A stretch of 64,000 nucleotides of DNA, from contig JAADJZ010000016.1 of NCBI GenBank assembly GCA_011032825.1, forward strand, positions 744,001 through 808,000. Direction: 5' to 3'. Each line of letters starts with the position of its first letter. Within the stretch, counting starts at the first letter, position 1. The position numbers were made by a program, and so were the translations under genes. Positions 2,641-31,400 of this stretch are shown here, piece after piece. The notes under the pieces are model-generated. The model saw nothing but the letters and a program-made list of their open reading frames with translations, was not told the origin of the DNA and made no database searches. Origin of the DNA: Massariosphaeria phaeospora. Its lineage: Eukaryota > Ascomycota > Dothideomycetes > Pleosporales.

Positions 2641-3034
2641 TAGGCTAGCAAATAAGTAAAAGTTAAGTTAAAGTTAAGTTGCTTTTTTTATAACTTTAAC
2701 TTAACTCTACTTATATACTTAATCTTTCAACGCTAGTACAAAGTTATAGTTAAGTTGAGTTGCATAAATTTTAAGTTAAAGTTGAGTTATCTCGCACAAG
2801 CTTTAGGTTATAGTTGAGTTATAGTTAAGTTGTTATATTTAGAGTTTCTATATTGTATTTCAACGTTAGCAAAGTACAAGTTGCTTAAGTTTATTATAGA
2901 TTGTTATTACAGCGTAGAATTAGTTGCATTTTAATAGCTAAGTACAAAGCAACGTCTACGCTAGGTATTACTAGAAAATTCAAAATTATTATAGCTTTAT
3001 ACCGCTAGAACAAGTAGCAACTAAACTTTAGCTT

Positions 3035-3587
3035 TTACGTTTGCTGCGAACTTTTCTTGTACTTTCTATAGTATTTCTTTGCTAAATTTATGTTTCTTGT
3101 GTTAATCGTTACTCGTTTCGCGTGTATAGCGTTAATATTAGTATCTATTAAAATTAGCTTTGCACCTAGCAACAAGTAGAAAGCTATACTTTCAAAAATG
3201 CTAATTAGAAAAGCTTTTGTTACTTTTTGTATAGCTTTAATTGCACTAGCTTAGAAGCGTAGATTAAGCTTAAACTCTTGCGCAATCTTGCGAACTAGCT
3301 AACTAAATAGTAGTTTGCGCATAAAAAGCTTAGTTAATTTCTAGTATCGTTGAATTTCGCGCAACGCAATAGCTGCATGTTGTTAAAAATTAAGCTGCAA
3401 TTAACTGCTATAATAACTTACTTCTTTGCTTCTAGCAATAAAGCTTTTTTACACTATTTATTATTAGTTTCTTTTTATTCTTGTACAGATTGCTAGATTT
3501 GCGAGCTACTTTTACTACGAAAAGCTTTTGCGAAGCCTTGCTGCTAGTAGCAAAGTAGTAGTAGTTAGTTTGCTTAGTGCAAGCTAT
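3035..3587 (-). pseudogene. Histone H3 gene relic carried inside the hAT element (left copy)
   Basis: Three exons: 3,587-3,422, 3,372-3,190 and 3,144-3,035. Intron 1 is GTAAGT...CATGCAG (49 nt) and intron 2 is GTATAG...AATAG (45 nt). The start codon now reads ATA, followed by A-C-T-K-Q-T, matching the ARTKQT start of H3 with Arg2 changed to Cys (CGC to TGC). Further on come KVARKS (the K27 region), VKKLYC, T-IALREIQRY, LVRKIAQEF, NLRF-ASAI, FLISIFE and, after intron 2, NTNINAIHAKRVTI; these follow the whole H3 fold. The K9 segment ARKS is absent: NYYYFATSSK stands between T6 and K14. Three internal stops (TAG, TAG, TAA) and many Glu-to-Lys changes fit RIP. About 152 codons against 136 residues for H3, because of tail insertions. 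It is a dead gene here; recognition of the family is secure, function is not. Confidence 0.9.
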
Positions 3588-3963
3588 TGCGAAAGAATTG
3601 CTACGTAGTAGGTGTAGTATAAAAAGTAAAAAGTTGTAATAATTATTCGTAATAATTACAGTAGGTAAAGAAGCTGCAGAAGCTGTAGCAAAAGTGCGTG
3701 TTTTAAGTAGCTAGCAGCAAAGCGCTAGCTAAAGCTGTAGCTTTTGTAGTAGCGTACAAGCTACTTTACACAGAATCTAGCCTATAAATCTGCTACTTAA
3801 CTTTTTGCTACTTTACTTTCTGCTTCTACTTACTTACGTACTACGACTAGCTTTATTATTACCTACATTTTTTACAAATACAATAGCCGCAATTAAGTAG
3901 AAACTTAACAACGAAATAAACTACGAGCTTAATAATAAGTTACTTTTGTTTTACGAAATTGAA

Positions 3964-4251
3964 TGTAATAGGCTAAAAGCTCTATGAATTGCCTTGGTCG
4001 TAGAATTTTAGTAGCTATTAACACTGTACGTAACAGCTTCGACGATACCTAGAAAAGCCTCGCTAGTTTCTAGTTAACGAAAGTCTTGCGGTATTAGGTT
4101 TTTACATAGCTTTCGAAAGCGCTTCGTAGGTGCTTCGAAAGCTAACTAACTATAAAGTATATAGAGCTCTTTTGTTCGCGCTGTAGATAGACTCTATCGA
4201 ATTTATTACATTCTTTATCTAGAACTTGCTTTCCTAGGCGATTCTCTTTTA
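3964..4251 (+). repeat. Solo LTR (288 bp) inserted in the hAT element
   Basis: A second copy of the LTR at 1,496-1,783, beginning TGTAATAGGC. It is flanked by ttgaa (3,959-3,963) and ttaaa (4,252-4,256), a 5-bp target duplication with one G/A transition. The inverted hAT copy has the uninterrupted site (about 30,077-30,084 on the other strand), which shows this is a later insertion and not part of the hAT element. Confidence 0.85.
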
Positions 4252-4439
4252 TTAAAGTTCTAACTAGGTTTAAGCTAGCAAAGTAAAAAGCGCTTACAAA
4301 TGTAATTATTACAAAAGTTTATTACAGCATCTACTAACAAACTTAAAACTTTGAGTTTAAAAAGCACGAAGTTCTTAGCGTACTAGCGAATCGCGGTTGC
4401 GTTGAATTACGAAAAAAGCGCTTTACACATTACAAGCTA

Positions 4440-5505
4440 CTATTTAAAAATTAATTAAGCAATACTACTTGCGCAACTACTAAGAGAAATCAAATAGCTT
4501 ACTTAAGTGCTAAAGAAAAAGCTATTGCAAATGCTAGTGCAGAAAATCGGCAAGCAAAATACTAGCTTAAGAAAAAGCTTTAAGCGAAAGAGAAATTTAC
4601 TGCGTTGTTTGCGCACAACTAGAAAAAGTAGTTAGCAACTAAACTTAAGCTTTTAGATAAGCAACGCTACTGCGAACAAAAAAGTAGTAAGTTATTACAT
4701 TAGTTTATTACGTTATTGTACTTACAATAGTTACGCAGTTAAGTAGCTTTAAGCGAAACTTAGCTTTGTTTATAAAAAGTAAGCTTGTATTTATTACAAT
4801 GTTAACTTCTAATAGTACAAAAACATTCTTAAACAAATCGCTAAAGCACTAAAAAACAAGAAAAAAATTAAGAATTAGCTAATATCGCGAATATTTGGCG
4901 CTAGCGAAGCTACTAATAGAATTATGCGTCGTATCTACTTAGACAAATTAGCTAAGTTAAAGAATAATTCGTTTAAGAACAAGAAAGCTAAAATAGATTA
5001 GCAAGAGTTTGTAAAAACGTTAACTCTAGAGAATTTAACACTAGTAACTGCTAAAAACTAGAAGTAAGTTATTATAGCAGTTTATTACATATCTATACTA
5101 ACTGCACTAGCTTACGCAAGCTTATACTTTTTCTCGAACTACGCGTTAACAGCAACGATGCTTATAAAAATATTAATAGCTTGTATATTCTAGCGCTTAC
5201 AATTGATAAGTGTAAAGAAAAAGCAAGTAGCAACTTAGAAATTAATGCGTTTTACAATAAGTGTAAAAACAAATATAAAACAAAAAATTAGTAGAGAAAA
5301 GCGTTAGCAGAAGCAAACAAGTTTTCTAGTAAAAATAAAGAAAAAGTTAAGAATAAAAATAAAAATAAAGAGTAAAATAAAGTAGTAGATAAAGTAGTAG
5401 AGCAGACTAAAGTAGTAGAGCAAACTAAGTTAGTAGAGTATTTAGATTAAAAAAGTTTCTCTAACAATAGTAACGCTTATAAAAAAGCGTAGACTTAAGG
5501 CTTTT
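4440..5505 (+). pseudogene. Unidentified lysine-rich cargo reading frame with introns (left copy)
   Basis: Reading through TAG/TAA stops gives a long Lys/Gln/Asn-rich frame. It has segments such as KEKAIANASAENRQAK, a segment with ASEATNRIMRRIYLDKLAKL, and a C-terminal stretch of KNKNK and VVEQTK repeats. Two candidate introns start GTAAGTTATTA: about 4,688-4,732 and 5,087-5,130, the second with a CTAAC branch-like motif before its acceptor. I do not recognise the protein family. It sits between the histone H3 relic and the transposase in both hAT copies, so it is probably part of the element. It could also be a second transposition protein. Confidence 0.45.
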
Positions 5506-6099
5506 TACTTTTTTATGTAAATTAAAACGTTGCTAGCATAAACATAGCTAGTATTTACTATCTATAACGCGGCCTAAAACGTGCATAACATTGCGATTAA
5601 CAAATTAGCAAGTATAACTTAATTAGAACTGTAAAATTAAAGCGCTACTACTGCAGCTTTAATTTTAGCTCTAATCTTAGTTGCATTACTGCTTTAGCTT
5701 TTGCGCTTAAACGTTAGCAATATTTCGCAAGCAGAAAAGCATGTTCTGTTTTCTTTTAACAATCTGCGTATTCTCTTTTAGCAATGTACTTATTCTTTAT
5801 CTTTAATCTACTCTAATACTAATTATTATAGTTTATTATTACAGTACCTGCGCTTTTGTACTATACCTTTTGTTATAAACATAGCAAAACTTTCGCTACT
5901 TATTTGTTTATTTAAATTTAACGCTAAGCAATTCGTTTAAAAAAGAGAAAAAAATAAACTTTATTTAGTAAAATATTGTTTTACGCATATTAAAGATAAT
6001 ACAGAACAAGAAGCAGTAGTAACTGCGTAAAAAATGTAGTAGAGTTCTACTAAGTAGGCTTTAAACCTAGAAATAGCAAATTTGCGATAAAACTTTGCT

Positions 6100-8650
6100 A
6101 TACGCACTAGTTAAGTATAGCTATAGTTTAAAAAAGCTGCTAATTCTAGTAATAGCTACTTCTACGTATTCTGCTATAATTGCAGCTTTGCTCTTTAGCA
6201 CCTAGCAGTTAAAACTATCAAAACTAAACACTTACTTAACTACTTTAAATCTAGAACCTGTTAAAAAACGCTTACTTGTATTTACTCTTAACTTCGTCTA
6301 CAGCTAGTACTACGTTAACTTTAATTTACTACTATTGTACTACTATATTCAACTTAGGCTTTTAAACGAGAACTAGTACAAGTAGTTATATATAGCAACT
6401 AGTTTTTTCAAACAATTAAGCAGCTTTTATTCTAGCAATTTCTTCAATTTCTTCGACCTAATATTCTAAGTATTAGTTAATTTAAATTCTAAAGAATGTT
6501 CTATAAACGATTTAAAAAAGCTAAAGCATTACTTTTTAATAACATTAGCTAGTTAACTAAGATCTCAATTGCGATAGATAAGTAGTTTGCTTCTAATTAT
6601 TTTAGTTTTTTTGTAGTTAAAGAATACTACGTTAACTGCAACTAGTAGCTTTAAAAAAAGTTGCTAAATTTTGTTTCTTTATGCGAAAGACATACTAGTG
6701 CTGCTGTAGCTACTAATATACTACAAGTACTCTTAAACACTAGCATTAAATTACGCTTTCTAGCAATTACTACAAATAATGCTAAAAAAAACAAAACGCT
6801 TAGTTGTGTTATTAAACAGCAACTAGAAGCAAAGAACATACTTTAGAGCTTATTAAAAAACTTAATTTTGTATCTTGCTTACATTATTAACTTTGTTGTT
6901 TAAAATATTATTTTACACTTTAAGCTTGCAGCATTAGTAAGTGCTAACGTTAAACTAAAAAAAATACTACAAAGACGCTATTTAAGCGACGTGCAAGCAA
7001 ATATTTTTGTTTTAAACTCTTTTTACAAAGTATACAGTGCGTTATTACATACTTTTATTACAGCCTAATATACACCTAGCTTTGAGCTATTTGCATAGCA
7101 ATTAATTTGTTGTTTTAACAATACAAGCGGTTTATTGCTACGCAACTACACTTGCTACTAAAACAACAAATGTCTATTATTCGCAACGTTAAAATATAAT
7201 AAAATTTAACTTACAATATGTGCAAGCGCGCACTTAAAATCTAAAAATTTATTAACAAATAGCTAGTAAAAGAAATTGCACTTAAGATAACAATTAGTGT
7301 AAGCAGTATTCTACATAATGAAAATATAGCAAAAGTAAACTTCTACGACTTTAGGCAACTAAAATTAACACTAGATAAATAGCACTACTTAAAGTTAATT
7401 ACTAATATGCTTAAAAACTTTAAAAACGCAACAAATTTCTTAAGTAAAAACTATAAGCTACAAGTCTAGTATATCTAGCTTATGTACAACTATTTTTTCA
7501 ACTTTCTAAATAGTATGCAAAACGAACTTAACAACGACATAGAAAATTAAAATACTTCGAAGTAGCTTACAGTTGTACGAGCTGCTGCAAATAAAAAAAA
7601 AAGCTAAACTTAGTACGCTAGCGAATAGGTAGAAAGTACTTATTAATAGGTATAGGTTAAGTTATAAGTTGCACAAACTTTAAGTTAAAGTTAAGTTAGA
7701 GTTAACCTAGCGTAGGTAGAAGTTAAGTTAGAGTAGTTAAAGCTTTAGGTTAAGAGTTAAGTTAGAGTTACCTAAATAGTTAAGAAACTATAATAAATAA
7801 ATGTAATAAATATACATAAAAAACTTAATGTTAATATAAGTTGTAAATATTATGTAAGATTTAACTACAACTCTAAGCTTTAACTACTTTAACTTAACTT
7901 TAACTTAAGCTGCTTAGTAACTAGCGCAAGTTAAAGCTAGAGTTAAGTTAAAGTCTAACGTAAGCTAACTCAACTCTAACTCAACTTCTACCTATTTACT
8001 AGCCTAAAACTTAGCAAGTATTATAAAAGAACTAGCGATAAACGAAAGTTTTTATTTAATTGTACTACTATTCTAGACTCTAGCTAAAAGCTTACGACGT
8101 ACGAGGTATAGTTATTACAATTACTTATTACAGTTATATGCTAACTACGCGCTTAAGATAAAACCTAAAATAATTAAAACAAGCACACTTACTGCGAAGA
8201 GTTTTTTAATTACTTTAATTGCTATAACGACAATACTCGCTTTGCTTTTACTTCTATTTTTTTGTTTTGTACAACTAAACTTTAAAGTAGTAAATAGTTT
8301 TAAAAACTAAAGCTTTTGCTCTAGTTGCTGCCAAGCAGTTTTTTATTTGTTAACTTAAACAAAATAGAAAAAGAAAAGAGCTTAACTTGCTAAGAAAAGA
8401 AAGCTTATCTAAGCATTACCTACGTACGCGCTAGTGCTTCTTTTAATATCTTTAAATAGTAGCAAGTAAATAAAAAAACGTATCTATGCTTATTACAAGT
8501 TGCAAAAAATGTACTTGCAGTACAAATTGCCTAAGTTAGAGTTAAGCGCGAATTCAACGTTGCTAAGAATGTTATTAGCAATAAAAAGTACTAACTTGCT
8601 GCCTAAACGATTTAGCGAATTATAATATTAAAAAACTATATTACTTAAAA
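6100..8650 (+). pseudogene. hAT transposase relic, left copy, interrupted by a MITE
   Basis: The central part (about 6,560-6,850) reads with the hAT catalytic layout: SIAIDK-FAS (first Asp and Trp region), then RHTSAAVATNILQVL and LAITTNNAKKNKTL, where the second conserved Asp (ITTDNA) has become Asn. The C-terminal dimerisation block (about 8,455-8,640) reads VAKNVLAVQIA, VRVKREFN (from V-ER-FN) and VISNKKY-LAA-TI. Stops are TAG or TAA where Trp or Gln is expected. The MITE at 7,614-8,006 splits the frame. Nothing here can be active. The N-terminal boundary is approximate. Confidence 0.85.
7614..8006 (+). mobile_element. 393-bp MITE of the same hAT family
   Basis: Ends are TACGCTAGCGAATAGG and (reverse complement of the other end) TAGGCTAGTAAATAGG. 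They are flanked by a perfect 8-bp duplication AAACTTAG (7,606-7,613 and 8,007-8,014). The inverted hAT copy holds a single AAACTTAG at the matching place (about 26,726-26,733), so the insertion is directly demonstrated. Its termini and subterminal GTTAAGTT motifs match those of the large element, so it is probably a non-autonomous derivative. Confidence 0.9.
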
Positions 8651-8762
8651 AAAAGAATAGAACAGCGTTTTTTAGTTTGCAAAGGTAGATAATAAAAAAC
8701 TACTATGTAACAAAGTTAAAAACTTACTTAACTTTTAAGCGTAGTATATAGACTTTACTTTT

Positions 8763-8890
8763 AGGCTTATACCTACGCTTACACCTAGCTCGTTATCTAG
8801 GCTAACACTTAGGTTAATACCTAAGCTAATACTTAGGCTTATACTTAGCTTGTTATTTAGACTTATATCTAAGCTTACATCTAGACTTTT
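8763..8890 (+). repeat. 12-bp tandem repeat inside the hAT element (left copy)
   Basis: About ten units of the type aggcttatacct follow in a strict 12-bp register. The same array, reverse-complemented, lies in the right hAT copy at 25,864-25,985. The register is a multiple of three, so it could have encoded a tetrapeptide repeat, but it lies downstream of the transposase dimerisation block. Confidence 0.8.
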
Positions 8891-9353
8891 ACAATTAAAA
8901 ATAACTCTATCGAATAATAATTTAGGAAAAGAGAATTTGCTACTTCTGCTACAAAAGCGCGCTCGACTTTTACGCTACTGTAATTAATATTTGTAATAAT
9001 ACAACTTTTTTTACTCTACTTGTATTCTTGTACGTAAATAGTAGCTGTAGTAACAAAACTTCGTAAATACTATTTGCGCGTTCTTAAATGTAATAACTAG
9101 CTGTAATAACTTTTTAAACTCTAGCAACTTTCTAAGCTAATACATAACTTTATAACTTAAATGTAACTTTTAACTTAACTCTAACCTAAAGCTTTAATTG
9201 CTTTAACTAAACTATAACCTAACGCTTTGATAACTCTAACTTAACTTCTACCTACGCTAGAGTAACTATAACTTAACTTTAACTCAAAGTTTATGCGACT
9301 TATAACTTAACTTATACCTATTAACAAGTACTCTCTACTTATTCGCTAGCGTA

Positions 9354-22178: not shown

Positions 22179-22910
22179 TACGCTAGCGAATAGGTAAAAA
22201 GTATTTATTATTAGGTATAAACTAGGTTAGAGTTGCATAAACCTAAAGTTAAAGTTAAGTTAAAGTAATTAAAGCGTAGGTTAAAGTTAGGTTATAGATA
22301 CTACTTTTAAGTTAATAAACCTATTATAACTAGCTATTATAATTATAAAAAGAAAATATATTAAAATATAAAATTATAGAGGTCTATGCTAATTTAATCT
22401 TAACTTATGCTATTTAGTTTTAGCGTAGGTATAAGTAAGCTAGTAAATAAGTAAAAGTTAAGTTAGAGTTAAGTTAGCTTACGTTAAACTTTAACTTAAC
22501 TTTAGCTTTAACTTGCGCTAGTTACTAAGCAGCTTAAGTTAAAGTTAAGTTAAAGTAGTTAAAGCTTAGAGTTGTAGTTGAGTTTTACATAATATTTACA
22601 ACTTATATTAACATTAAGTTTTCTATATATATTTATTACATTTATTTATTATAGTTTTTTAACTATTTAGGTAACTCTAACTTAACTTTTAACTTAAAGC
22701 TTTAACTACTCTAACTTAACTTCTACCTACGCTAGGTTAACTCTAACTTAACTTTAACTTAAAGTCTATGCAACCTATAACTTAACTTATACCTATTAAT
22801 AAGTACTTTTTACCTATTCGCTAGCGTAGGTATAAGTTAAGTTAGTACTAGAGTTTTACGTAAGCTAACTTAACTTTAACTTAATTTATACCTATTTACT
22901 ACTCTAGTAT
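22179..22910. mobile_element. MITE-like element of the hAT family, carrying a nested copy
   Basis: The left end TACGCTAGCGAATAGGT matches the hAT/MITE terminal repeat. The right end is degraded (cctatttactac..., about 22,891-22,910). The segment between is filled with GTTAAGTTAAAG motifs and is interrupted by the 393-bp copy at 22,436-22,828. The right boundary is approximate. Confidence 0.6.
22436..22828 (-). mobile_element. 393-bp MITE, second copy
   Basis: Same length as the copy at 7,614-8,006 and its reverse complement in content. A perfect 8-bp duplication GGTATAAG flanks it (22,428-22,435 and 22,829-22,836). Ends read TAAGCTAGTAAATAAG and (reverse complement) TACGCTAGCGAATAGG. Confidence 0.9.
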
Positions 22911-25398: not shown

Positions 25399-25863
25399 TA
25401 CGCTAGCGAATAAGTAAAAAGTACTTATTAATAGGTATAGATTAGGTTATAAGTTGCACAAACTTTAAGTTAAAATTGAGTTATAGTTACTCTAGCGTAG
25501 GTAGAAGTTAAGTTAGAGTTATTAAAGCGTTAGGTTATAGTTTAGTTAGAGTAATCAAAGCTTAAAGTTAAAGTTAAGTTAAAAGTTACATTTAGGTTAT
25601 AGAGTTATGTGTTAGCTTAGAGAGTTGCTAAAGTTTAAAAAGTTATTACAGCTAGTTATTACATTTAAGAACGCGCAAATTGTATTTACGAAGTTTTGTT
25701 ATTACAGCTACTATTTACGTACAAGAACACAAGTAGAGTAAAAAAAGTTGTATTACTACAGATATTAATTACGGTAGCGTAGAAGTCAAGCGCGCTTTTG
25801 TAGCAAAAGTAGCGAATTTTTTTCTTTTAAATTATTATCTAACAGAGTTATTCTTAATCGTAA

Positions 25864-25985
25864 AGGCCTAGATATAAGCTTAGATGTAGGCCTAAATAAC
25901 AAGCTAGGTATAAGCCTAGATATTAGCCTAAGTATTAACCTAGATAACGAGCTAAGTATAGGCGTAGATATAGGCCTAGAAGTAA
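25864..25985 (-). repeat. 12-bp tandem repeat inside the hAT element (right copy)
   Basis: About ten units such as taggcctagata, the reverse complement of the array at 8,763-8,890. Confidence 0.8.
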
Positions 25986-26088
25986 AGTCTACATACTACG
26001 CTTAAAAGTTAAGTAGGTTATTAATCTCGTTACATAGTAGTTCTTTATTATTTGCTTTTGCAAACTAAAAAACGCTGTTCTATTCTTT

Positions 26089-28238
26089 TTCTTAAGCAAT
26101 ACAGTTTTTTAATATTATAATTCGCTAAATCGTTTAGGCAGCAAGTTAGTGCTTTTTATTGCTAATAACATTTTTAGCAACGTTAAATTCGCGCTTGACT
26201 CTAACTTAAGCAATTTGTACTGCAAGTATATTTTTTGCAACTTGTAATAAGCGTAGATACGTTTCTTTATTTACTTGCTACTATTTAAGAATATTAAAAA
26301 AAGCACTAGCGCGTACGCAAGCAATGCTTAGATAAGCTTTTCTTTTTTAGCAAGTTAAGCTCTTTTCTTTTTCTATTTTGTCTAGGTTAATAGATGAAAA
26401 ACTGCTTGGCAGCAACTAAAGCAAAAGCTTTAGTCTTTAAAACTATTTACTACTTTAGAGTCTAGTTGTATAAAACAAAAAAATAAAAGTAAAAGCAAAG
26501 CAAGTATTGTTGTTATAGCAATTAAAGTAATTAAAAAACTCTTCGTAGTAAGTGTGCTTGTTTTGATTATTTTAAGTTTCGTTTTAAATGCGTAGTTAGC
26601 ATATAACTGTAATAAGTAACTGTAATAACTATATCTCGTACGCCGTAAGCTTTTAGCTAAAGTCTAAAATAGTAGTATAATTAAATAAAAACTTTCGTTT
26701 ATCGCTAGTTCTTTTATAATACTTGCTAAGTTTAGCTTTTTTTTTATCTGCAGCAGCTCGTACAACTATAAGCTACTTAAAAGTATTTTAATTTTTTATG
26801 TCGTTGTTAAGTTCGTCCTGCATACTATTTAGAAAGTTGAAAAAATAGTTGTATATAAGCTAGATATACTAGACTTGTAGCTTATAGTTTTTACTTAAGA
26901 AATTTGTTGCGTTTTTAAAGTTTTTAAGCATATTAGTAATTAACTTTAAGTAGTGCTATTTGTCTACTGTTAATTTTAGTTGCCTAAAGTCGTAGAAGTT
27001 TACTTTTGCTATATTTTTATTATCTAGAATACTGCTTATACTAATTGTTATTTTAAGTGCAATTTCTTTTACTAGCTATTTGTTAATAAATTTTTAAATT
27101 TTAATTGCGCGCTTGTACATATTGTAAGTTAAATTCTATTATATTTTAACGTTGCGAATAATAGACATTTGTTGTTTTAGTAGCAAGTGTAGTTGCGTAG
27201 CAATAAACCGCTTGTATTGTTAAAACAACAAATTAATTGCTATGCAAATAGCTAAAAGCTAGGTGTGTATTAAGTTGTAATAAAAGTATGTAATAACGCA
27301 CTGTATACTTTGTAAAAAAAGTTTAAAACAAAGATATTTGCTTGCACGTCGCTTAAATAGCGTCTTTGTAGTATTTTTTTTAGTTTAACGTTAGCACTTA
27401 CTAATGCTGCAAGCTTAAAGTATAAAATAATATTTTAAACAACAAAGTTAATAATGTAAGCAAGATACAAAATTAAGTTTTTTAATAAGCTCTAAAGTAT
27501 GTTCTTTGCTTCTAGTTGCTATTTAATAACACAACTAAGCGTTTTGTTTTTTTTAGCATTATTTGTAGTAATTGCTAGAAAGCGTAATTTAATGCTAGTG
27601 TTTAAGAGTACTTGTAGTATATTAGTAGCTGCAGCAGCACTAGTATGTCTTTCGCATAAAAAAACAAAATTTAGCAACTTTTTTTAAAGCTACTAGTTGC
27701 AGTTAACGTAGTATTCTTTAACTACAAAAAAACTAAAATAATTAGAAGCAAACTACTTATCTATCGCAATTGAGATTTTAGTTAACTAGCTAATGTTATT
27801 AAAAAGTAATGCTTTAGCTTTTTTAAATCGCTTATAGAACATTCTTTAAAATTTAAATTAACTAATACTTAGAATATTAGGTTGAAGAAATTGAAGAAAT
27901 TGCTAGAATAAAGGCTGCTTAATTGTTTAAAAAAACTAGTTGCTATATATAACTACTCGTACTAGTTTCTATTTAAAAGCCTAAGTTGAATATAGTAGTA
28001 CAATAGTAGTAAATTAAAGTTAACGTAGTACTAGCTGTAGACGAAGTTAAGAGTAAATACAAGTAAGCGTTTTTTAACAGGTTCTAGATTCAAAGTAGTT
28101 AAGTAAGTGTTTAGTTTTGATAGTTTTAACTGCTAGGTGCTAAAGAGCAAAGCTGCAATTATAGCAGAATACGTAGAAGTAGCTATTACTAGAATTAGCA
28201 GCTTTTTTAAACTATAGCTATATCTAACTAGTGCGTAC
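26089..28238 (-). pseudogene. hAT transposase relic, right copy, without the MITE
   Basis: It is the inverted counterpart of the left relic: the catalytic-domain block lies at about 27,490-27,780 and the dimerisation block at about 26,100-26,285. The frame is broken by the same kinds of stop. Limits are transferred from the left copy and are approximate. Confidence 0.8.
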
Positions 28239-28832
28239 AGCAAAGTTTTATCGCGAATTTGCTATTTCTAGGTTTAAAGCCTACTTAGTAGAACTCTACT
28301 ACATTTTTTACGCAGTTACTACTGCTTCTTGTTCTGTATTATCTTTAATATGCGTAAAACAATATTTTACTAAATAAAGTTTATTCTTTTCTCTTTTTTA
28401 AACGAATTGCTTAGCGTTAAATTTAAATAAACAAATAAGTAGCGAAAGTTTTGCTATGTTTATAACAAAAAGTATAGTACAAAAGCGCAAGTACTGTAAT
28501 AATAAACTGTAATAATTAGTATTAAAGTAGATTAAAGATAAAGAATAAGTACATTGCTAAAAGAGAATACGCAGATTGTTAAAAGAAAACAGAACATGCT
28601 TTTCTGCTTGCGAAATATTGCTAACGTTTAAGCGCAAAAGCTAAAGCAGTAATGCAACTAAAATTAGAGCTAAAATTAAAGCTGCAGTAGTAGCGCTTTA
28701 ATTTTACAGTTCTAATTAAGTTATACTTGCTAATTTGTTAATCGCAATGTTATGCACGTTTTAGGCCGCGTTATAAATAGTAGATACTAGCTATGTTTAT
28801 GCTAGCAACGTTTTAATTTACATATAAAAGTA

Positions 28833-29898
28833 GAAAGCCTTAAGTCTACGCTTTTTTATAAGCGTTACTATTGTTAAAGAAACTTTTTTAATTTAAATAC
28901 TCTACTAACTTAGTTTGCTCTACTACTTTAGTCTGCTTTACTACTTTATCTACTACTTTATTTTACTCTTTATTTTTATTTTTATTCTTAACTTTTTCTT
29001 TATTTTTACTAGAAAACTTGTTTGCTTCTGCTAACGCTTTTTTCTACTAATCTTTTGTTTTATATTTGTTTTTATACTTATTGTAGAACGCATTAATTTC
29101 TAAGTTGCTACTTGCTTCTTTTTTACACTTATTAATTGTAAGCGCTAGAATATACGAGCTGTTGATATTTTTATAAGCATTGTTGCTATTAACGCGTAGT
29201 TTAAAAAAAAGCGTAAGCTTGCGTAAGCTAGTGCAGTTAGTATAGGTATGTAATAAACTGCTATAATAACTTACTTTTAGTCTTTAGCAGTTACTAGTGT
29301 TAGATTCTCTAAAGTCAACGTTTTTACAAACTCTTGCTAATCTATTTTAGCTTTCTCGTTTTTAAACGAATTATTCTTTAACTTAGCTAATTTGTCTAAG
29401 TAGATACGTTGCATAATTCTATTAGTAGCCTCGCTAGCACCAAATATTCGCGACATTAGCTAATTTTTAATTTTCTTTTTGTTTTCTAGTGCTTTGGCAA
29501 TTTGTTTAAGAATGTTTTTATACTATTAAAAGTTAACATCGTAATAAATACAAGCTTACTTTTTATAAGCAAGGCTAAGTTTTGCTTAAAACTACTTAAC
29601 TACGTATTGTAAGTACAATAACGTAATAAACTAATGTAGTAACTTACTACTTTTTTATGCGCAGTAGCGTTGCTTATCTAAAAGCTTAAGTTTAGTTGCT
29701 AACTACTTTTTCTAGTCGTGCGTAGACAACGCAGTAAACTTCTTTTTCGCCTTAAGCTTTTTTTTAAGCTAGTATTTTGCTTGCTAATTTTCTGCACTAG
29801 CATTTGCAATTGCTTTTCTTTTAGCACTTAAGTAAGCTGTTTGATTTCTCTAAGCAGTTGCGCAAGTAGTATTGCTTAATTAACTCTTAAACAGTAGC
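28833..29898 (-). pseudogene. Unidentified lysine-rich cargo reading frame (right copy)
   Basis: The inverted counterpart of 4,440-5,505, with the same lysine-rich C-terminal repeats (about 28,900-29,030) and intron-like GTAAGTTATTA starts. Family unknown. Confidence 0.4.
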
Positions 29899-30453
29899 TT
29901 GTAATGTGTAGAGCACTTTTTTTGTAATCTAACGCAACTGCGATTTGCTAGTACGCTAAGAACTTTGTGCTCTTTAGATTTAAAGCTTTAGATCTATTAG
30001 TAGATACTGTAATAAACTTCTGTAATAATTACATTTGTAAGCGCTTTTTACTCTACTAGCTTAAACTTAGTTAAAACTTTAATCTCGTAAAGCAAAAGCA
30101 ACTTATTATTAACTTCGTAGTTTATTTTGTTGTTAAGCTTCTGCTTAATTGCGGCTATTGTATTTGTAATAAATGTAGGTAATAATAAAGCTAGTTGTAG
30201 TACGTAGGTAAGTAGAAGTAGAAAGTAAAGTAGCAAAAAGTTAGGTAGCAGATTTACAAGCTAGATTTTGTGTAGAGTAGCTTGTGCGCTGCTACAAAAG
30301 CTACAGCTTTAGCTAGCACTTTGCTGCTAGCTACTTAAAACACGCACTTTTACTACAGCCTTTGCAGCTTTCTTACCTATCGTAATTATTACAAATAATT
30401 ATTACAACTTTTTACTTTTTACACTACACTTACTACGCAGCAATTCTTCTGCA

Positions 30454-31006
30454 ATAGCTTGCACTAAGCAAACTAACTACTACTACTTTGCTACTAGTAG
30501 CAAGGTTTTGCAAAAGCTTTTTGTAGCAAAAGTAGCTTGCAAATCTAGCAATCTATACAAGAACAAAAAGAAACTAACAATAAGTAGTGTAAAAAAGCTT
30601 TATTGCTAAAAGCAAAAAAGTAAGTTATTATAGCAGTTAATTGCAGCTTAATTTTTAACAACATGCAGCTATTGCGTTGCGCGAAATTCAACGATACTAG
30701 AAATCAACTAAGCTCTTTATGCGCAAACTGCTATTTAGTTAGCTAGTTCGCAAAATTGCGCAAGAGTTTAAGCCTAATCTACGCTTCTAAGCTAGTGCAA
30801 TTAAAGCTATACAAAAAGTAACAAAAGCTTTTCTAATTAGTATCTTTAAAAGTATAGCTTTTTACTTGTTGCTAGATGCAAGGCTAACTTTAACAAATAC
30901 CAATATTAACGCTATACACGCGAAACGAGTAACAATTAACACAAGAAATATAAATCTAGCATAAAAATACTACAAGAAGTACAAGAAAAGTTCGCAGCAA
31001 ACGTAA
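30454..31006 (+). pseudogene. Histone H3 gene relic carried inside the hAT element (right copy)
   Basis: Exons 30,454-30,619, 30,669-30,851 and 30,897-31,006 have exactly the lengths (166, 183, 110 nt) of the left copy; introns are 49 and 45 nt. The second intron keeps a CTAAC branch motif, and its acceptor reads CAA here but TAG in the left copy, so the ancestral acceptor was CAG. The start also reads ATA-GCT-TGC-ACT-AAG-CAA-ACT. Some residues are less damaged here (RY-KSTKLFMRKL, QEFKPNLRF), others more (VACKSS for VARKSS). Both copies share the ATA start, the R2C change, the missing K9 segment and three stop codons. So part of the damage may predate the duplication, or RIP hit the same sites twice. 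Confidence 0.9.
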
Positions 31007-31400
31007 AAGCTAAAGTTTAGTTGCTACTTATTCTAGCAGTATAAAGCTATAATAATTTTAAATTTTCTAGCAATACCTAGCGTAGACGTTGCTTTGTACT
31101 TAGCTATTAAAATGCAACTAATCTTACGCTGTAATAACAATTTGTAATAAACTTAAGCAACTTGTACTTTGCTAACGTTAAAATACAATATGTAAACTTT
31201 AAATATAACAACTTAACTATAACTCAACTATAACCTAAAGCCTATGCGAGATAACTTAACTTTAACCTAAAGTTTATGCAACTCAACTCAACTATAATCT
31301 TGTACTAGCGTTGAAAGATTAAGTATATAAATAGAGTTAAGTTAGAGTTATAAAAAAAGCAACTTAACTTTAACTCAACTTCTACTTATTCGCTAGCCTA

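Follow-up and report, generated by a model that had tools for sequence, protein, structure and literature searches.

hAT-type DNA transposons carrying a histone H3 gene have been published from Pyrenophora in 2013 (PMC3538342) and from the Mycosphaerellaceae in 2019 (PMC6710886). In Pyrenophora tritici-repentis (Ptr) the element is a hAT of ~5.6 kb with a transposase, a central ORF and an H3-like gene, H3L, for which ESTs are reported and for which the authors considered drift (PMC3538342). In Pseudocercospora fijiensis and five relatives, an H3-carrying hAT was judged to be independent of the one in Ptr (PMC6710886), and both reports describe transduplication of H3 (PMC3538342, PMC6710886). 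A repeat of Stagonospora nodorum, R25, shows likeness to H3 and weak likeness to a DNA transposon after deRIP, and was re-filed under endogenous gene origin on account of the H3 likeness (PMC3017866); likened to the element described below by description and not by sequence, R25 may instead be an H3-bearing hAT.

Here, we describe an H3-bearing hAT from Massariosphaeria phaeospora (Pleosporales), found in a window of 64,000 nucleotides (C8:744001-808000, the whole stretch of DNA analysed) and followed through the 42.08-Mb genome (51 contigs). An earlier note, made from the letters of the window alone, was aware of no hAT family with a complete, intron-containing H3; the Pyrenophora and Mycosphaerellaceae reports contradict the claim that such a hAT had not been described. 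The Ptr element has the same three gene kinds, comes from the same order, Pleosporales, and measures ~5.6 kb against 6.0 kb here; in M. phaeospora a single intact copy stands against others that have almost all been RIPped, and the comparison with Ptr is by description, not by sequence. The P. fijiensis element (PMC6710886) likewise carries H3, makes an 8-bp TSD, has RIPped copies and stands beside a separate intact host H3, but it is 9.5 kb long with one or two H3 copies called intronless, whereas here 6.0 kb hold one H3-like gene with two introns. In that report the host gene is the sole H3 copy free of RIP, whereas M. phaeospora has one unRIPped copy in an element. Literature searches for the combination of H3 and hAT brought up these three reports and no Massariosphaeria title among the matches listed; at least four papers mention the species. 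What is new is an unmutated copy from a further lineage, H3 introns placed elsewhere than in the host gene, relatives of the central gene in Pyrenophora and Bipolaris, an H3 that has lost K9 but keeps 12 of 14 host lysines, and 393-bp MITEs with little RIP.

Results

The window holds two inverted copies of one ~6-kb hAT element (2641-9353 and 25399-31400). As the earlier note had proposed, both carry an H3-like relic at the same internal site, on the strand opposite the hAT transposase relic. With its stops read through, copy 2 matches Histone (PF00125) at 3.2e-17 and, on the opposite strand, Dimer_Tnp_hAT (PF05699) at 1.2e-07. The features are as follows.

2641..9353, minus strand: element copy 1, RIPped, two inserts; flanks AACTTAAA / GACTTAGA agree at 6/8, both differences A/G
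3422..3587, minus strand: relic of exon 1 of the H3-like gene, copy 1; placed by mapping from the intact copy
3190..3372, minus strand: relic of exon 2 of the H3-like gene, copy 1; placed by mapping from the intact copy
3035..3144, minus strand: relic of exon 3 of the H3-like gene, copy 1; placed by mapping from the intact copy
3883..5494, plus strand: central gene relic, copy 1; outer bounds approximate; encloses a foreign insert at ~3963-4250
5881..8984, plus strand: hAT transposase relic, copy 1; bounds approximate; encloses the MITE at 7614-8006
7614..8006, no strand given: 393-bp MITE of the same family nested in copy 1; 8-bp TSD AAACTTAG on both sides
25399..31400, plus strand: element copy 2, RIPped, 6002 bp, no insert; flanks agree at 3/8
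25765..28457, minus strand: hAT transposase relic, copy 2; bounds approximate; PF05699 1.2e-07
28839..30158, minus strand: central gene relic, copy 2; bounds approximate
30454..31006, plus strand: H3-like gene relic, copy 2; exons 30454-30619, 30669-30851 and 30897-31006; PF00125 3.2e-17

Both ends of copy 2 are present but its flanks form no TSD, so this copy may have been rearranged. Elsewhere in the window, a 287-bp repeat (92% identical) occurs at 1495-1781 and at 3963-4249, the second inserted in copy 1. A 650-bp stretch at 22179-22828 has TACGCTAGCG ends in inverted orientation; its flanks do not match (1/8), and we rejected it as a MITE, although it is perhaps two joined MITEs.

An unmutated copy of the element lies at C23:1144888-1150888 (6001 bp), flanked on either side by AATGTACC, a perfect TSD of 8 bp. 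Its ends are TACGCTGGCGAATGGGTAGG and TAGGCTGGCGAATGGGTAGA; the two termini of the element are not identical, with TAGGCTRG... on the H3 side and TACGCTRG... on the other. Between this copy and window copy 2, 1132 of the 1152 substitutions are RIP-type (C>T or G>A, in the RIP direction). Three genes are open in it: a hAT transposase (863 aa, three exons), a central protein with an acidic tail (392 aa, four exons) and, on the opposite strand, an H3-like protein (152 aa, exons of 166, 183 and 110 nt, two introns). The intron models were placed by hand, and all seven introns are GT-AG; the spliced H3-like product is 100% identical to a deposited protein, P0002, 'histone H3 [Massariosphaeria phaeospora]'. 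The three exon lengths previously read from the relics equal those of the intact gene, which maps onto copy 1 at exactly 3035-3587, and the right-hand copy, said to be free of foreign sequence, is collinear with the intact one over its 6002 bp. The window relics thus derive by RIP from a hAT transposon of three genes, of which the genome has one intact and about forty mutated copies.

The TSD is 8 bp, matching at 8/8 in the intact copy and at 8/8 bases in eight of eight MITEs, against 6/8 in copy 1 and 3/8 in copy 2. The terminal inverted repeats are short, the first 19-20 bases of the two ends differing at two positions, and the transposase has the C-terminal dimerisation region (PF05699, 4e-16). 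Its C-terminal block can be aligned to the Hermes hAT transposase (PDB 6dww, 4d1q, 2bw3, 8edg) at 3.9e-14, and for the catalytic DDE residues good alignment is confined to that block; the protein is 863 aa long, compared with 517-612 for the Hermes chains. To our knowledge, Hermes has no accessory genes.

The H3-like gene is a regular part of this transposon family. A profile search of the genome gave 46 PF00125 matches, most with stops. The H3-like protein, used as a query, had 99 matches in the genome, of which 43 rows (the main piece per locus, with the intact copy represented by two) were entered in the linkage count as 42 loci; the host H3, two rows on contig C31 and 53 rows taken as extra pieces of the same loci were excluded. 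Two pairs among the 42 (C28/C50 and C14/C18) have identical scores, which may reflect duplication in the assembly. From the central-protein and transposase searches, 47 of 79 and 36 of 63 rows were entered, and transposase linkage is a lower bound, with 53 of 221 candidates scored. The central gene occurs at 35 of the 42 H3-like loci and the transposase at no fewer than 25, in the expected order and on the expected strand.

H3 is missing within 12 kb at seven of 33 transposase loci. At five of these, the sequence on the H3 side was examined: element likeness stops inside the element at four, at positions 3253 to 4246, one stopping at an inserted related element, and at the fifth none was found on that side. 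A sixth (C4, L028) is rearranged. Ten of 47 central-gene loci have no H3 nearby and include loci coinciding with the C18 and C4 transposase loci. At the loci that were inspected (five of the seven H3-less ones fetched), there was no transposase-bearing member with intact ends that lacked H3. Intact-ended members without H3 do exist, and the eight examined are all 393-bp MITEs, too short for a transposase too. The earlier attribution of the H3 to the element holds, since the gene lies inside the TSD of the unmutated copy and no intact-ended transposase member without it was met among the loci examined.

The intact gene encodes a protein with a histone fold and an ARTKQT start (PF00125, 3.1e-36). 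It is 66-71% identical to 11 other H3 proteins and shares 96 of 136 aligned residues with host H3, 52 of these 96 with a different codon. For the one lineage compared, dN to host H3 is 0.24 and dS 1.71 (near saturation); together with the codon differences, these values suggest that the divergence is old while the frame was kept. Ordinary H3s hardly change, so most of the divergence likely arose after the gene had left host constraint. Most DNA-contact and H3-H3 contact residues are retained, by the residue lists that we take to apply, and structure prediction gave a low-confidence model. We rejected a CENP-A identity, as the protein is 75% identical to the host H3 stretch against 51-53% to the two C31 stretches, which are taken for host CENP-A.

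The host H3 lysines are kept at 12 of 14 positions; K122 has become arginine and K9 is replaced in a tail that reads R8-HHPA-T11. All 19 further copies that extend over the tail, the two in the window included, read TAC at codons 9-10, which RIP makes from CAC (His), and so K9 was already absent in the common ancestor of the copies. Random loss of two of 14 lysines would include K9 one time in seven; hence its loss alone proves nothing. Slowed non-RIP change in the H3 exons, a sign of recent selection, was not seen among the copies: there are 56 such changes in 8721 aligned sites (6.4 per kb), compared with 44 in 30225 in the transposase (1.5 per kb), 68 in 20604 in the central gene (3.3 per kb) and 74 in 20495 in intergenic sequence (3.6 per kb).

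In H3 numbering, the introns of the host gene split R8 and Q120, whereas those of the H3-like gene split T45 and D106. The gene thus has introns, but not those of the present host gene, and a capture of that host gene complete with its introns is not supported. The second intron, of 45 nt, would add 15 residues if read in frame. One P. fijiensis H3-like copy is reported to have a 16-residue insertion (PMC6710886), and we conjecture that this is an unspliced intron like the 45-nt one here.

The central protein found two relatives in a protein search, in Pyrenophora seminiperda (47%) and Bipolaris sorokiniana (38%, on seven contigs), which ties the backbone of the element to the Pleosporaceae. 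No Pyrenophora or Bipolaris relative of the H3-like protein is among the matches listed (the best 120 of 7991 and the best 120 of 466). For the central protein, no chaperone family or fold was matched (fold search at E 0.001), and its predicted model is of low confidence.

A genome search with the 393-bp MITE, with 40 of 372 candidates scored, gave at least 40 matches of at least 351 bases at 91-100% identity and one at 83%; another 40 rows were shorter and mostly inverted. The eight examined are all exactly 393 bp with perfect 8-bp TSDs, one of them nested in window copy 1:

7614-8006 of the window
593-985 of L013
6969-7361 of L014
1906-2298 of L027
one each in L035-L038

Four that lie outside big elements are mutually 97-99% identical, and those inside RIPped elements are altered. 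RIP has a quoted lower length limit of ~400 bp (PMC6710886), with which the little-RIPped state of the 393-bp MITEs is consistent.

Ten direct pairs of TTATCAC...TTATCAC-like words (TTATCACA pairs), spaced by exactly 13 bp, lie in the intact element at positions 245, 1211, 1879, 3098, 3851, 4224, 4610, 4767, 4987 and 5732. One stands near each end (inverted), one upstream of each of the three ATGs, and five are in introns of the transposase and central genes (five of the seven element introns). By eye, splice sites are lacking around the pairs upstream of the ATGs, which we therefore rejected as introns. Such pairs are absent from 60 kb of host sequence, taken as five stretches. Across the genome, TTATYACANNNNNTTATYACA as a pattern occurs 255 times, often in this hAT family, against none for a reversed control, and one match falls in each of the four MITEs outside big elements. 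We conjecture that the pairs are a candidate binding site of an element protein.

Discussion

The H3-like gene is plausibly a kept working part of the element, and it may well have been kept because its K9-less product would form silencing-resistant nucleosomes. The protein would have to be made, to pair with H4 and to enter chromatin, and H3K9 methylation would then be blocked wherever it sits. The action on chromatin proposed in the earlier note appears better grounded now that an open gene exists and K9 is missing. In Neurospora, silencing proceeds through H3K9 methylation by DIM-5, which HP1 reads and DIM-2 follows. The M. phaeospora genome has one Pre-SET match, the best solved relative of whose protein is DIM-5 (7.5e-59), one Chromo_shadow match and, among four DNA_methylase matches, one protein that combines BAH and DNA_methylase; from their domain make-up, the last two are presumably HP1 and DIM-2. 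Against a DIM-5-like, HP1-like and DIM-2-like set, judged by these domains, a K9-less H3 would be a fitting counter-move. Speaking against anti-silencing, the other copies are heavily RIPped and protection from RIP is not seen, and we treat the anti-silencing step taken alone as a tentative suggestion. The full version, in which the H3 would be a core gene of a long-lived hAT lineage and its K9-less product, with an acidic chaperone of the element, would build the element's own anti-silencing chromatin, we consider rather unlikely.

It is quite possible, if short of probable, that the H3 is instead cargo, captured by transduplication, carried unused and left to drift, with K9 lost by chance. 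This is near the published view: both earlier reports describe transduplication, and the Ptr report mentions drift (PMC3538342, PMC6710886). The clearly changed tail and C-terminus fit unused cargo, as does non-RIP change in the H3 exons that is not slowed among the copies. Drifting cargo sits less easily with a gene that is open and has two GT-AG introns after long divergence (dS 1.71 versus dN 0.24), with the retention of most contact residues (from the lists we presume to be right) and with the presence of H3 beside the central gene at 35 of 42 loci.

We think it distinctly unlikely that the H3-like protein, perhaps with the central protein as its chaperone, packs element or target DNA during transposition, K9 loss being incidental. 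Three genes kept in one element would suit such a role, as would the acidic tail of the central protein, its relatives in P. seminiperda (47%) and B. sorokiniana (38%), and the same three gene kinds in Ptr (PMC3538342). The central protein, however, matched no chaperone family or fold and has a low-confidence model, and the MITEs move without encoding H3, though supply in trans is possible. We dismiss almost entirely the ideas that H3 entered the element later or that AT-rich DNA resembles it by chance. The window copies do contain other nested repeats and MITEs, but the unmutated copy refutes both ideas; against them also stand the collinearity of the 6001- and 6002-bp copies, exon lengths that agree with those of the unmutated copy, 42 loci in mostly fixed order and the Pfam Histone match of 3.1e-36.

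Two published readings are touched by this element: that Ptr and the Mycosphaerellaceae captured H3 independently, and that the carried H3 is intronless. Transposons are usually viewed as targets of chromatin silencing. If the anti-silencing reading is true, an open, element-carried H3 without K9 would be a counter-move at the histone itself, an idea that the intact copy makes testable.
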